DNA of 22,204 bases from a virus. The notes below the pieces were generated by a model. It saw only the letters and a program-made list of their open reading frames with translations. It made no database searches and was not told the DNA's origin. Of the stretch, positions 592 through 5,552 are shown piece by piece. Made by a program: the position numbers and the translations under genes. Numbering within the stretch: position 1 is the stretch's first letter; every line of letters starts with the position of its first letter. Where the stretch lies: IMG/VR virus record IMGVR_UViG_3300009545_000063, positions 1 to 22,204 of that record; one strand, 5' to 3'.

Positions 592-1104
592 GTGCCCGGC
601 GGCGACTACAGCAACCAAGCCCACGCGGCAGCCGAACGCCGCGACGTCGTCGTGCAGCTGCGCGACGAAGGCCTGACCTTCCGCGAGATCGGTGAACGTC
701 TCGGCATCAACCGCCAGCGCGCCCACGAACTGCACAAGCGGGCCCTGCGCGACCGGCCCATTCTGGCCGCCTCGGCCCAGCGTGACCACGAACGCAAGAA
801 CGCACAGCTGGCCCAGATCGACGAGCAGCGCCGCGAAGCCGAAGCCAGCCGCGAAGCCGTCCTGGAAGTGCTGTACCGCGACGGCCGCGTCGTCATCACC
901 CAAAGCGGCAAGGTCATTGAGGGCGTCCAGGACGATCCGACGCTGCTGGCCGCCGTGGACCGCCTGGTGCGCCTGGATGAGCTACTGCTGAAGCTGAACG
1001 ACCACGAGGCGAAGCTGCTCGGCCTGTACGCCAAGGCCGAACTGAACGTGTCCGGCGGCGTCACCTACGAGATCCTCGGCATCCCCACAGAAGACCTGAA
1101 GTGA
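592..1104 (+). CDS. Helix-turn-helix protein, probable terminase small subunit
   Basis: This is a probable small terminase subunit, which recognises phage DNA and hands it to TerL. With the GTG at 592 it has 170 residues. That start has GAGGGG six bases upstream (580-585); ATG 586 directly abuts the same motif, and ATG 550 and TTG 535 have no ribosome site, so 592 is preferred. Residues about 18-52 form a helix-turn-helix (GLTFREIGERLGINRQRAHEL). A long charged helix, likely a coiled coil, spans about 60-95 and a second helical segment 120-150. This HTH plus oligomerising helix layout fits TerS proteins. It ends in a GTGA overlap with terL. A plain DNA-binding regulator is the alternative; position favours TerS. 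Confidence 0.75.
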   Translation: MPGGDYSNQAHAAAERRDVVVQLRDEGLTFREIGERLGINRQRAHELHKRALRDRPILAASAQRDHERKNAQLAQIDEQRREAEASREAVLEVLYRDGRVVITQSGKVIEGVQDDPTLLAAVDRLVRLDELLLKLNDHEAKLLGLYAKAELNVSGGVTYEILGIPTEDLK

Positions 1105-2507
1105 CCCCCGCCCCGACCGTCGTCCGCTACGAACCGCGCGGCGCCGCGGTCGAACTGTTCACCAGCCGCGACAGCGAGATCGTCATCTCCGGCCCGGCCG
1201 GCACCGGCAAGTCCGTGGCCTGCCTGTTCCGGATACACCTGGCCGCGCTGAACAACCCCGGGTTCCGCGGTCTGATCCTGCGCAAGACCGCGGTGTCGCT
1301 GGGCTCGACGACGCTGGTCACCTACAAGGAGAAGGTGGCCAAGGCCGCGCTCGATCAGCGGATTGTCACCTGGTACGGCGGGTCCCGGCAGGAAGCCGCC
1401 TGCTACCGGTATCACCGTGACGGTGCCGTGTCCGCGGTCATCGTCGTTGGCGGTCTGGACAAGCCCGAGAAGATCATGTCGTCGGAGTACGACCTCGTGT
1501 TTGTCGACGAGGCCACCGAGCTGTCCCTCACCGACTGGGAAACGATCGGCACGCGGCTACGTAACGGCCAGCGCGCTCAACAGCAGCAGATCGCCGCCTG
1601 CAACCCCGACTCCGAACACCACTGGATGATCCAGCGGGCCCAGGCCGGGACGCTGAAGATGCTGTACTCCACCCACCGTGACAACCCCGCCTACGTCAAC
1701 CGCGACGGCAGCTACACGCCAGCCGGCAGGACCTACATCCTCGGCAAGCTTTCCGCGCTCACCGGGATCCGCCGCCAGCGTCTGTTCGAGGGCAAGTGGA
1801 CCTCGGCCGAGGGCATCGTCTACGAGAACTGGGACCCGGCCATACACCTGGTCAACCAGCTTCCGAAAGGCTCAGAGACGTGGACCAGGTGGTGGACGGT
1901 CGACTTCGGGTATTCGAACCCGTTTGTGCTCCAGTGCTGGGCCGAGGACCCGGATGGCCGGCTATGGCTGTACCGCGAGATCTACAAGACCAAGACGCTG
2001 GTGGAGGACCACGCTAAGACGATCCTGCGGATCGTGCGCCGCTGCGCGGTCTGCTGCAAATCCAAGGCGGAGGACCACGACTGCCAGACCTGCAAGGTCT
2101 GCGAGCTGAAGTGGATCGAGCCGCGGCCCCGCGCCGTCATCTGCGACCACGACGCCGAGGACCGCGCGACCCTGGACCGGCACCTTGGCCTGGGCACGTC
2201 GAAGGCGCACAAGACGGTGAAGGACGGCGTACAGGCCGTGCAGTCGCGCCTGAAGGTCCAGGGCGACGGGCGTCCGCGGCTGTACATCGTGCGCAATGCG
2301 GTGGTCGAAATCGACAAGGAGCTGGAGGCGGCGAAGTTGCCGCTGTGCACCGAGCAGGAGATCACCGGCTACGTCTGGCCCGAGGGCGTGAAGCCGGACC
2401 AGCGCGAGAACCCGGTGAAGCAGGACGACCACGGCTGCGACGCGATGCGCTACATGGTGGCCGAGCGCGACCTTGGCGGCCGGCCCCGCGTGCGGACGCT
2501 GGGCTGA
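1101..2507 (+). CDS. terL: Terminase large subunit (packaging ATPase/nuclease)
   Basis: TerL is the motor that cuts concatemeric phage DNA and pumps it through the portal. The 468-residue protein has a Walker A (GPAGTGKS, 31-38), a Walker B (DLVFVDEATE, 131-140), and a coupling motif (CNPD, 167-170). The RNase H-like nuclease domain shows acidic residues at D268 (VDFGYSNP), D349/D351 (ICDHDAED) and D442/D443/D447 (QDDHGCDAMRYMV). Length is normal for the family. An unusual Cys-rich stretch (C315, C318, C319, C328, C331, C334, with H326) interrupts the nuclease domain and looks like a zinc-binding insertion. The GTG start overlaps the stop of the preceding HTH gene. Its stop faces the convergent antisense gene. 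Confidence 0.97.
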   Translation: MTPAPTVVRYEPRGAAVELFTSRDSEIVISGPAGTGKSVACLFRIHLAALNNPGFRGLILRKTAVSLGSTTLVTYKEKVAKAALDQRIVTWYGGSRQEAACYRYHRDGAVSAVIVVGGLDKPEKIMSSEYDLVFVDEATELSLTDWETIGTRLRNGQRAQQQQIAACNPDSEHHWMIQRAQAGTLKMLYSTHRDNPAYVNRDGSYTPAGRTYILGKLSALTGIRRQRLFEGKWTSAEGIVYENWDPAIHLVNQLPKGSETWTRWWTVDFGYSNPFVLQCWAEDPDGRLWLYREIYKTKTLVEDHAKTILRIVRRCAVCCKSKAEDHDCQTCKVCELKWIEPRPRAVICDHDAEDRATLDRHLGLGTSKAHKTVKDGVQAVQSRLKVQGDGRPRLYIVRNAVVEIDKELEAAKLPLCTEQEITGYVWPEGVKPDQRENPVKQDDHGCDAMRYMVAERDLGGRPRVRTLG

Positions 2508-2523
2508 GCGCTCAGGAAGCGCT
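2507..2523. terminator. Possible bidirectional terminator hairpin between convergent genes
   Basis: AGCGCT (2507-2512), a five-base loop, then AGCGCT again (2518-2523) can form a 6-bp stem. It overlaps the 10-bp palindrome TGAGCGCTCA (2505-2514), whose ends are the terL stop on the plus strand and the antisense gene stop on the minus strand. There is no U-tract, so intrinsic termination is only a guess from position and symmetry. Confidence 0.3.
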
Positions 2524-2748
2524 GCCGACCGTCATCCAGCGCAGCCCGACCTCTTCGATCCGCGCGACAACCCAGCGCGCCTCACACTTAGGGCAGTCCC
2601 ACTTCGTGCCCGCCTTGAGGATGCGCACGCCGGACGGGGATGTGCTGCTGGGGATGTCCAGTGGCGGCTTGTCGTTACAGGTGTGGCACCAGGCGCTGGA
2701 GTCTTCGTAGGCGTCGGCGTAGTCGGTCTCGACCTGAGCGGAAGTCAT
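2512..2748 (-). CDS. Antisense zinc-ribbon protein, function unknown
   Basis: This is the only supported minus-strand gene. The 78-residue protein has two CxxC pairs, WCHTC near residues 21-24 and DCPKC near 52-55, separated by a Pro/Ser-rich loop, followed by a beta-like segment (ARWVVARIEEVGLRWMTV). That is a zinc ribbon. Its codons show the strong G/C third-position bias of the neighbours, which supports real coding. It converges on terL and its 5' end faces the A/T-rich island at about 2830-2985, so it is probably transcribed separately from the late operon. The ribosome site is weak (CTGAAGC before the ATG). Function unknown; a small regulator or accessory (moron) gene is possible. Confidence 0.72.
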   Translation of the reverse strand: MTSAQVETDYADAYEDSSAWCHTCNDKPPLDIPSSTSPSGVRILKAGTKWDCPKCEARWVVARIEEVGLRWMTVGSAS

Positions 2749-2848
2749 GCTTCAGGGTAGCCGCTGCGGGGCGGTGCATGGCTAGTTGCCGGCGGCCTGG
2801 ACCGGTTGGGTCCGTGTCTCTGACGTGGCGTTTAGCGAATGATCTTAT

Positions 2849-2870
2849 CCGCATAATGCTTCTTATGCGG
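2849..2870. promoter_or_regulatory. Perfect inverted repeat, probable operator overlapping a -10-like box
   Basis: CCGCATAA (2849-2856) and TTATGCGG (2863-2870) are perfect inverted arms around a six-base spacer. The left arm contains CATAAT (2852-2857), a good -10 match, though no convincing -35 lies 16-18 bases upstream. GGAGG (2869-2873) begins at the end of the right arm, seven bases before a GTG at 2881. The element sits between the minus-strand gene (5' end at 2748) and the plus-strand genes, in a locally A/T-rich patch. It could be a repressor operator or an RNA hairpin near the ribosome site; I favour an operator. Confidence 0.5.
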
Positions 2871-2880
2871 AGGTGGGCGC

Positions 2881-2952
2881 GTGACCACTTTCGAACAGGC
2901 GTTCCCGTGCGCTACCTTGTTCGTATCGCGAACTGATGCAACAGGCAATTAA
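2881..2952 (+). CDS. Possible 23-residue leader peptide
   Basis: A GTG at 2881 opens a 23-codon frame ending with TAA at 2950-2952. It has one of the best ribosome sites in the window (GGAGG, seven-base spacer). The peptide starts MTTFEQAFPC and includes LFVSRT, encoded by the first of two 15-bp palindromes. The frame is the same as that of the membrane protein at 3010, and after the stop it reads LFVSRT again, encoded by the second palindrome. It may be a leader peptide, or the remnant of a longer N-terminus of the 3010 gene cut by a stop codon. Too short for composition to be informative. Confidence 0.35.
   Translation: MTTFEQAFPCATLFVSRTDATGN
2919..2933. promoter_or_regulatory. 15-bp palindrome, copy 1 (probable operator)
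   Basis: GTTCGTATCGCGAAC is a dyad with one imperfect pair. It matches the copy at 2967-2981 in 14 of 15 positions. The pair lies between the dyad at 2849 and the ribosome site of the membrane protein at 3010. Sites of the TTCG-N5-CGAA type resemble those reported for IclR-family and other dimeric regulators in actinobacteria; which protein binds here is unknown. Confidence 0.5.
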
Positions 2953-2966
2953 TGCAGGCCGCAACT

Positions 2967-2981
2967 GTTCGTATCACGAAC
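2967..2981. promoter_or_regulatory. 15-bp palindrome, copy 2 (probable operator)
   Basis: GTTCGTATCACGAAC is a perfect dyad with 6-bp arms and a 3-bp centre. It starts 48 bp after copy 1 and ends 15 bp before the GGGAGG ribosome site (2997-3002) of the next gene. The repeat and symmetry suggest cooperative binding of a dimeric regulator; no regulator gene is visible in the window. Confidence 0.5.
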
Positions 2982-3009
2982 TGCATCGGGGCATGTGGGA
3001 GGTGCGGCC

Positions 3010-3279
3010 ATGGCAACCATCACCGCGACTCCCCACGACGCGCCCGCCGTCGGGGCTCGGGCCCGGCAGCGGATGCGGGCGGCCTGGAACAGGGCGGTGG
3101 ACCAGGCCGGCGCGATGGTCAGCGCGGCGCGGCTCCGTTCGAGCCCCGCGCTGACCATCGGCGGCTTCATCACCATCGACACCAGCGCCTTCCAGCTCGC
3201 CGCCGGGCACGTTAGCCCCGGCATCGGGCTGCTCGTCACCGGCCTGAGCATGTGGGCCTACGACTGGTCCCGCGACTGA
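3010..3279 (+). CDS. Small membrane protein upstream of portal
   Basis: This 89-residue protein starts at ATG 3010, chosen because GGGAGG (2997-3002) lies seven bases before it; the GTG at 2995 lacks such a site. Residues 1-45 are Ala/Arg-rich and probably helical. Residues about 46-83 are hydrophobic (ALTIGGFITIDTSAFQLAAG, then a GIGLLVTGLSMWAYDW segment), which suggests one or two membrane passes. It ends in a TGATG overlap with the portal gene. Small membrane proteins at this position occur in other actinophages, but their role is unknown. It is the first gene after the regulatory island and may be the first gene of the head operon transcript. Confidence 0.75.
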   Translation: MATITATPHDAPAVGARARQRMRAAWNRAVDQAGAMVSAARLRSSPALTIGGFITIDTSAFQLAAGHVSPGIGLLVTGLSMWAYDWSRD

Positions 3280-5552
3280 TGAGCCTCATCGGCAAGGTCG
3301 TCTCGGCTGTCAGCAGCGGCACCGGCGGCAGCAACACCCCGCCCCTGCGCTATTCCCGGCCCGGCTACGCCCCCGCCTCGCTCATGGCCGGCGGCAACGA
3401 CCTCGCCGCCTACATGCGCGCCTACGGCAGCAGCGGCACCGTCTACGGCATCGTGTCCATGCTCGCCCGGCAGACCGCGAAGGTGCCCTGGCACCTGTAC
3501 CGGCAAGCCAAGCAGGACGGCCGCGTCCGCTACACCACCGGCGACAAGGGATCCGACCAGCGCACCGAGGTGCTGCAGCACCAGGCGATCGCCCTGTGGA
3601 ACGCGCCGAACGCCGCGATGTCCGGGTTCCGGTTGCGCGAACTCGGCCAGACCTACCTCGATCTGACCGGCGAGTCCTACATCGTGGTGCAGCGCAACCC
3701 TGCCTCCACCATCCCGCTCGGCCTGTGGCCCGTGCGCCCCGACCGCATGGAGCCGATCCCCGGCACCGACAAGTTCCTGGCCGGCTATATCTACACCGGC
3801 CCGTCCGGCGAGGTCGTGCCGCTGCAGCCGGACGAGGTTATTGCGACCCTGCTGCCGAACCCGTTCGACCCGTACAGGGGCTTGGGTCCGATCCAGTCGA
3901 TCCTCGTCGACATCGACGCCGCCAAGTACAGCGCGCAGTGGAACCGGAACTTCTTCCTGAACTCCGCCACACCCGGTGGTGTCATCCAGGTCGACAAGCG
4001 CCTCGACGACGACGAGTGGAACGAGCTCACCGCGCGCTGGCGCGAGACCCACCGCGGCGTAGGGGCCGCGCACCGCGTTGCCGTGCTGGAGCAGGGCGCC
4101 GTATGGGTGCCGAACGCCCACACGATCCGCGACATGGACTTCAGCACCCTGCGGAACGTCTCCCGCGACGTCATCCGCGAGCCGTTCGCCATGCACAAGG
4201 CGATCATGGGCGCCAGCGATGACGTCAACCGCGCCAACGCCCAGACCGCGCAGGAGCAGTTCGAGGCCTTCCTGGTCACCGACCGGCTCGACCGGTGGAA
4301 GGACACCCTGAACTGCTTCTACCTGAAGCTGTTCGGCACCACCGGCGACGGCGTTGAGATGGACCACGACAACGCGATCTCCTCCAACCGCGAAGCCGAC
4401 GCCCTGGAGTTGAAGAGCAAGGCCGAGGCCGCCGGTTCCCTGGTGACCGCCGGCTACGACCCGCACGACGTTCTGGAGGCCGTCGGCCTGCCGGACATGA
4501 AGGTCGCCGAGAAGGCCACACAGACACCCGCGGTCCCGCCCGGGTGGGTTGTGCCCGGCGCGCCCGCTTCCCCGGGCGCGCCGGCACAGCCCGGCACAGA
4601 CGACACCCCCGACGGCGGCGACTCCGACTCCCAGAACCGCCACCGTCACGCCATCCGCGCCGACGGTAGCGGCAAGACCGCGCCCGAGCACAACCTCGAC
4701 GAGGTCGACCGGCACTGGAAGGAAGCCGTTGCGATCCTCGTGGCCGCGTGGCTTTCGCAGATTGTGCCGGGCCAGATCAAGCAGCTCGCCGATCAGGTGC
4801 GGCGCCTCGTCGACGACGGCGACGCCGCGGGCCTGGCCCAACTGACCGTTGACTCCAGCGACGGCGCGCAGTTGCTCACCACCTCCATGACCGGCATGGC
4901 CGCCACCGCGGCGAAGCAGGCCGTGGCCGAGGCGAAGAAGCAGGGCATCGACATCGAGGCCCAGGCCGCCAATCCTGAGGTGATCTCCCGCGTCGCCTCC
5001 ACGATCGCGGCGCTTCAGGCCGCGGGCTTGGCACTGTCCGCCGGGTCGACGGCGGCCCGGCTCGCCGCAGCCGGCGACGCCGATCCCGAGGACGTGGCCA
5101 GCCAGGTCGAGGACGCGCTGGGCGCCCTGTCAGACGCCTCCCTGACGTCGAAGCTGCCCGGCGCCCTGTCTACGGCGCAGAACGAGTCCCGGATCGCGAC
5201 GTTCCTCGGCGGCCCTTCGGTCGACCTGTTCGCGTCCGAGATCAACGACAAGAACACCTGCTCGGCGTGCCGCGCCATCGACGGCCAGTACATCGGCAAC
5301 AGCCTCGACGACAACATCGCCGACGAGATCGACGAGCTGTACCCGAACGGCGGCTACATCAGCTGCGCGGGCGGGGATCGGTGCCGCGGAACCATCGTCG
5401 GCGACTACGTCGGGGACTCCGGCAGCAGCAGCGCCGACAACGGCGGCGACGTCCCGGCAGCGCTGGACGGCCTGCCGTACTTCCTGGTTGATGCCTACCG
5501 CAAGCCCCTAAAGGCCAACGGCCACAACCACCACGAGAAGGCGGGTGTCTGA
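3279..5552 (+). CDS. Portal protein fused to a MuF-like minor head domain
   Basis: This 757-residue protein combines two head functions. Residues about 1-410 are an HK97-type portal, the dodecameric DNA entry ring: the segments WHLYRQAK, GESYIVVQRNP, PDEVIATLLPNPFDPYRGLG, KYSAQWNRNFFLNSATPGGV and the EPFAMHKAIMGASDDVNRAN region are characteristic. A Pro/Gly/Asp-rich linker (about 412-455) leads to an Ala-rich helical part and a C-terminal MuF (SPP1 gp7-like) domain with C661-x2-C664 (NTCSACRAIDGQ), C696 and C702, the usual zinc-like cluster of that family. MuF proteins are normally a separate gene of the head. The ATG at 3279 overlaps the preceding stop (TGATG); an upstream ATG at 3252 lies inside the previous gene and was rejected. 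Confidence 0.93.
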   Translation: MSLIGKVVSAVSSGTGGSNTPPLRYSRPGYAPASLMAGGNDLAAYMRAYGSSGTVYGIVSMLARQTAKVPWHLYRQAKQDGRVRYTTGDKGSDQRTEVLQHQAIALWNAPNAAMSGFRLRELGQTYLDLTGESYIVVQRNPASTIPLGLWPVRPDRMEPIPGTDKFLAGYIYTGPSGEVVPLQPDEVIATLLPNPFDPYRGLGPIQSILVDIDAAKYSAQWNRNFFLNSATPGGVIQVDKRLDDDEWNELTARWRETHRGVGAAHRVAVLEQGAVWVPNAHTIRDMDFSTLRNVSRDVIREPFAMHKAIMGASDDVNRANAQTAQEQFEAFLVTDRLDRWKDTLNCFYLKLFGTTGDGVEMDHDNAISSNREADALELKSKAEAAGSLVTAGYDPHDVLEAVGLPDMKVAEKATQTPAVPPGWVVPGAPASPGAPAQPGTDDTPDGGDSDSQNRHRHAIRADGSGKTAPEHNLDEVDRHWKEAVAILVAAWLSQIVPGQIKQLADQVRRLVDDGDAAGLAQLTVDSSDGAQLLTTSMTGMAATAAKQAVAEAKKQGIDIEAQAANPEVISRVASTIAALQAAGLALSAGSTAARLAAAGDADPEDVASQVEDALGALSDASLTSKLPGALSTAQNESRIATFLGGPSVDLFASEINDKNTCSACRAIDGQYIGNSLDDNIADEIDELYPNGGYISCAGGDRCRGTIVGDYVGDSGSSSADNGGDVPAALDGLPYFLVDAYRKPLKANGHNHHEKAGV

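Follow-up and report, generated by a model that had tools for sequence, protein, structure and literature searches.

A putative SOS-controlled head-operon promoter with an exchangeable operator-like cassette in a soil actinobacterial phage

Little is known of how Streptomyces-type phages control their late genes, and LexA control of virion genes has been documented in few phages. In the Bacillus phage GIL01, the documented late promoter P3 is repressed by LexA via boxes located downstream of the -35 element (PMC6182141). In Streptomyces venezuelae, the LexA regulon extends to a predicted prophage, from which it takes in vnz_21525 and its neighbours (PMC9380542), and the -10 consensus of Streptomyces coelicolor promoters is TANNNT (PMC4895711). 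Here we describe an A/T-rich gap upstream of a phage portal gene that is most likely a real on-switch for the head genes, and through which head production may be tied to DNA damage in the host.

The window analysed is the entire 22,204-base virus record IMGVR_UViG_3300009545_000063, itself a fragment. It comes from a soil actinobacterial phage, and from its prophage relatives we infer Streptomyces as the host. Searches with portal and terL found near-identical contigs (L003, L004/L048, L012), a close relative (L013, terL 90% identical) and many distant relatives, some of them prophages in Streptomyces, Kitasatospora and other actinobacteria. As an earlier note on this DNA had stated, the late gene order is broken by an antisense ORF and by 261 bp without a large plus-strand gene (2749-3009, between the antisense ORF and the small gene that precedes portal). 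The A/T-rich island reported there, at 2830-2985, was borne out as the lowest-GC region of the record, with a GC content of 0.513 compared with 0.683 for the window; the only 156-bp stretches below 0.58 are those starting at 2777-2884, with the minimum at 2831. The genes and elements of the region are as follows.

1101-2507, plus strand: terL, terminase large subunit (Pfam Terminase_3, PHROG terminase)
2512-2748, minus strand: antisense gene for a small CxxC...CxxC protein, zinc-ribbon-like by eye
2754-2759, minus strand: -10-like TACCCT, 5 nt before the antisense-gene ATG, a candidate leaderless promoter (TAACCT in L013, at 6 nt)
2842-2847, minus strand: -10-like TAAGAT abutting the dyad, an alternative candidate for the leftward promoter
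2848-2871, no strand: perfect dyad with 9-bp arms and a 6-nt loop, TCCGCATAA-TGCTTC-TTATGCGGA, present only in the window, L003 and L004/L048
2852-2857, plus strand: CATAAT, inside the dyad; best -35 candidate 3/6
2885-2919, plus strand: conserved core of the putative head-operon promoter, CCACTTTCGAACAnGCGTTCCCGTGCGCTACCTTG, 32-35/35 identity among the window, L013, L049, L050 and L052
2890-2895, plus strand: -35 position, TTCGAA, 17 bp before the -10; 3/6 to TTGACA, a poor match
2891-2904, no strand: SOS/LexA-like box TCGAACAGGCGTTC across the -35 and the spacer, the best LexA-matrix site of the record
2913-2918, plus strand: -10 element TACCTT (TANNNT); TACTCT in L013, TACCCT in L049, TACCTT in L050/L052
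2919-2933, no strand: operator-like palindrome, site 1, GTTCGTATCGCGAAC, abutting the -10; identical in L050 and L052
2920-3009, plus strand: exchangeable cassette from core to start codon, type I; window and L050/L052 agree at 66/86 positions (z 14-15)
2967-2981, no strand: operator-like palindrome, site 2, GTTCGTATCACGAAC, 48 bp from site 1
2997-3002, plus strand: GGGAGG, ribosome site of ATG3010, found in the same position in L013, L049, L050 and L052
3010-3279, plus strand: small hydrophobic protein gene; homologues lie immediately before portal in many relatives
3279-5552, plus strand: portal gene (Pfam Phage_portal, 1.9e-53)

The 35-bp core was found by aligning the gap with that of L013, and a scan of the viral collection then added L049, L050 and L052. 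It lies between the dyad and the palindromes and had escaped the earlier note. Outside the near-identical pair L050/L052, the small gene and portal DNA of the core-bearing loci is about 64-83% identical, and the first 100 bp upstream of the core are unrelated between loci. A 23-base core pattern matched only contigs of the window's lineage in the viral collection, and a 22-base pattern had no match among 84,980 bacterial species genomes; the gap DNA was absent from cultured phages and gave merely weak 41-bp matches in plasmids. A loose match to the core in L198 was discarded as chance, having neither a -10 nor phage genes around it. We also rejected the core as coding sequence: in no frame is a start codon kept by all loci, and the lengths differ. 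In every case the core is oriented towards the small gene and portal, and transcription is predicted to start near 2924-2926.

Promoter-like signals upstream of the small gene extend beyond the core-bearing loci. In 11 of 145 loci a TANNNT stands exactly 7 nt ahead of a candidate small-gene start, the spacing seen in leaderless transcripts (about 0.6 expected for 526 candidate starts, from a background of 0.11% per start), and CCACTT-N20-22-TACYNT occurs at the equivalent place in the distant relatives L061, L063 and L065. Together with the conserved core, these signals indicate that a putative promoter before the small gene and portal is common in the window's phage family. The suggestion that the region sits where most siphophages have none therefore does not fit this family, many members of which have a promoter-like gap here; in L015, L020, L022, L029 and L035 terL overlaps the small gene, leaving no room for a promoter.

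Several further observations concern the same slot. The TANNNT element 7 nt before the small-gene start is seen in L031, L040, L069, L073, L139, L140, L034, L142, L154, L157 and others. A -10-like TAGCCT upstream of the small gene is common to L082, L083, L094, L114, L118 and L136, in the form ATGCTAGCCT in most of that branch and TTAGCCT in L114. Inside the small gene of L020, L022 and L029, TTGACAGGAGGATTTACACT is identical while the remainder of the gene diverges, a possible element in coding DNA. L098 carries at about 3600-3640, just upstream of the small-gene -10, a perfect dyad CTTTTGTA-TGGTTCC-TACAAAAG, another, unrelated operator-like repeat. Cargo in the terL-portal slot of other relatives comprises an HNH gene (leftward in L049, 5813-6289), an HTH gene and tRNAs, with leftward tRNA genes in the gaps of L005 (4423-4594) and L063 (3362-3579) and a tRNA-Asn in L018 (6525-6596).

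The core carries a sequence resembling the SOS boxes of Streptomyces, of the form TCGAAC-N4-GNNC (TCGAACAGGCGTTC, 2891-2904). Scored with a matrix trained on the 17 S. venezuelae boxes that PMC9380542 lists in its Table 1, this box ranks first in the 22 kb (13.8 bits, the next site reaching 11.5), and the boxes of L013 and L049 score 17.0-17.1, above every training site. The window box is without the last GA of the full 16-bp palindrome. Within CGAACA-n-GCGTTC, differences among the core loci are confined to the N4 centre. The box was not found in relatives that are more distant but share the gene order (L005, L061, L063, L065, L031 and L040), and the core box is thus specific to the lineage.

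Boxes of the form GAAC-N4-GTTC are concentrated in this lineage. Most of its contigs are fragments; in 102 kb they contain 16 boxes, a count that includes homologous copies and at least one box inside an ORF (G003 11699), so that events are not independent, compared with 12 boxes in 1.69 Mb of other relatives. The density is about 22 times that of the relatives, and simulations gave an expectation of 1.07, with a maximum of 5 in 200 runs. In five of five contigs (L012:4371, L013:569, L050:8479, L048:6376, L049:8435) a second box, with differing N4, lies at the putative promoter of a small gene (its protein begins NRYW or TRYW) ahead of the packaging genes; the box precedes the -10 by 4 nt in four contigs and comes just after it in L013. 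The window's own lineage also has this box at the predicted packaging promoter: L012 and the window differ at a single position over an overlap of 2850 bp, and the L012 box lies about 530 bp upstream of window base 1. Further boxes lie upstream of the leftward HNH gene in L049 and L052 (L049 having two within about 45 bp, the second towards that gene) and, in G003, downstream of an HTH gene near the integrase.

We propose, with a probability of roughly 0.6, that the gap is a divergent control region whose rightward part (2885-3009) is an SOS-repressed head-operon promoter with a swappable operator. This part would drive the small hydrophobic protein, portal and the genes onward. In a lysogen, host LexA bound across the -35 and spacer would exclude RNA polymerase; upon DNA damage LexA would be removed, and the core promoter would open together with the second SOS-box promoter before the packaging genes. 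The palindrome pair just past the -10, beginning at or beside the expected transcription start, would provide a second, phage-type-specific check by a regulator, and the leftward part (2749-2871) with its dyad would serve the antisense accessory gene. The conservation of the core, the motif match, the box enrichment, the box positions and the cassette incongruence described below are direct observations on sequence, from which we infer promoter activity, LexA binding, repression, induction timed by damage and the second operator.

It is possible, but unlikely, that the same promoter is governed by a phage-encoded repressor or activator whose GAAC-N4-GTTC operator merely resembles a LexA site. 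In favour of such a regulator, the boxes at several phage promoters are restricted to a single lineage, and the near-complete relative G003 is temperate, with HTH genes beside its integrase; given these genes, LexA need not be the only repressor. Against this, the L013 and L049 boxes match host LexA sites better than the training sites themselves do, and no LexA-type DNA-binding domain passed the Pfam cut-off in seven records, the one sub-threshold match reaching 19.7 bits in G003.

The operator proposed as the second element of the SOS-repressed promoter rests on the palindromes. Two near-identical palindromes had been reported in the island, and both are present: TGTTCGTATCGCGAACTG at 2918-2935 and TGTTCGTATCACGAACTG at 2966-2983 agree at 17 of 18 positions, 48 bp apart, with no third copy in the 22 kb record. 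L050 and L052 keep site 1 exactly and have GTTCGGATCGCGTAC on the other strand as site 2 (13/15) at the same 48-bp spacing. Their conservation does not extend to L013 and L049, where another palindrome replaces them; the type II cassette common to these two loci is built on AAAGTTACGTAACTTT (43/52; z 15). Variants of site 1 occur at the equivalent place in L005 (GTTCGGATAGCGGAC) and L065 (GTTCGCATAGCGGAC), both of a related GTTC-N7-GGAC form.

Between the two cassette types, similarity is slight or absent (z 1.3-3.2; window versus L013/L049, z 1.3-1.4). This distribution, with the window, L050 and L052 on one side and L013 and L049 on the other, contradicts the relatedness of the flanking genes: over the first 560 nt of portal, the nearest relative of L049 is L050 (83%) and that of the window is L013 (78%). 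The sequences thus indicate that the cassette has been exchanged independently of the genes, between two conserved flanks. Mosaicism is also seen in L004, whose terL is 55% and antisense gene 89% identical to those of the window and whose gap is identical from about 2766 on. The type II palindrome was not found elsewhere in the temperate relative G003, for example between its HTH genes. More tentatively, we suggest that two stacked controls may act on the head-operon promoter: the host SOS box, which is conserved, and the operator cassette, which is exchangeable and would be recognised by phage regulators specific to each type. If so, related phages would share the damage signal and differ in a second, immunity-like specificity, located with the structural genes and not in the immunity region.

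Another explanation, which we hold to be improbable, is a constitutive head-operon promoter that became necessary once an accessory gene was inserted after terL, the palindromes and box being incidental or part of a 5'-leader structure. The recurrence of accessory genes in the slot and the plain -10-N7-ATG promoters of other lineages, which have no obvious operator, are in keeping with it; the conservation and enrichment of the box and the exact 48-bp palindrome spacing kept in L050/L052 are not, and shuffled sequences fold as well as the leader does (z -0.42). An RNA-structure reading was likewise rejected: there was no Rfam match, and the dyad, which by itself folds well on the minus strand (z -3.2), is confined to near-identical copies.

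The leftward half has a different character. The gap alignment with relatives restricts the dyad, CATAAT and the GGAGG-GTG2881 pair to near-identical copies. The perfect dyad claimed for the island is there, with arms of 9 rather than 8 bp, and is unique in the record (0.01 expected at up to 3 mismatches). CATAAT, put forward as a -10, has no good -35. The GGAGG (2869-2873) described as a strong ribosome site stands before GTG2881, from which only a 23-codon frame opens; we rejected this frame, as GTG2881 with its GGAGG is absent from L013, L049 and L050. A dyad-GGAGGTGGGCG block resembles the start region of L016, but over too short a length to be relied on. No terminator-like site (a GC-rich hairpin followed by a T run) was found at 2667-3009, the dyads being without a T run. 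The reading of the island as a control region is supported for the head operon, given the promoter-like core kept in relatives and the -10 elements before the small gene in other lineages, but not on the elements first named as its promoter.

For the dyad, CATAAT and GGAGG-GTG (2869-2881), a role at the leftward gene, or no role at all, is more likely. As the dyad abuts TAAGAT and TACCCT (TAACCT in L013) stands before the antisense ATG, the leftward half probably serves the antisense gene. This gene had no match in Pfam or PHROG, and among the loci tested its homologues are confined to L003, L004, L012 and L013. That the island chiefly controls the antisense gene, through the dyad with TAAGAT or TACCCT, while the head genes are read through from upstream, is very improbable: a good leftward -10 does adjoin the dyad, and L013 too has TANNNT 6 nt before the antisense ATG, but the core is kept in L049, L050 and L052, which all lack the antisense gene, and is always directed at the small gene and portal.

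If the proposed SOS-repressed promoter is real, the head and packaging genes of an actinophage would be tied directly to the DNA-damage response of the host, by a short, testable promoter with a regulatory cassette that is swapped independently of the genes it controls. Such a cassette would differ from the stoperators of mycobacteriophages, which are dispersed repressor sites in many copies across the genome: the window palindrome occurs only twice in 22 kb, and in relatives of 59 and 61 kb the palindromes occupy single places, for which reason we rejected them as dispersed operators. The box shares the TCGAAC-N4-GNNC form with the S. venezuelae LexA regulon (PMC9380542); the loci of that regulon lie in the host genome, whereas here the box is part of a conserved phage-lineage promoter core before portal and recurs before the packaging genes. 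The -10 is that of the actinobacterial leaderless TANNNT promoters (PMC4895711), and in several of the window's relatives the small gene has the -10-N7-ATG arrangement; unlike these, the window's predicted promoter would give a leader of about 85 nt, in which lie a ribosome site and operator-like repeats. The closest parallel is GIL01 P3 (PMC6182141), where LexA boxes also lie in a virion-gene promoter downstream of the -35, the single box of the window being predicted from sequence, and where LexA-type boxes are found at a further phage promoter too, as at the core and packaging-operon promoters here. GIL01 is a phage of Bacillus, has its boxes in tandem and uses gp7 and gp6 as co-factors; the window belongs to a tailed actinobacteriophage with a single GAAC-N4-GTTC in its gap, an added palindrome cassette and no LexA-family protein found. 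With its single box, and with no such protein found in the seven records searched, the region is not a member of the GIL01 system, and what it would share with P3 is the proposed mode of control, in which LexA holds back the genes of the virion until the host is damaged.
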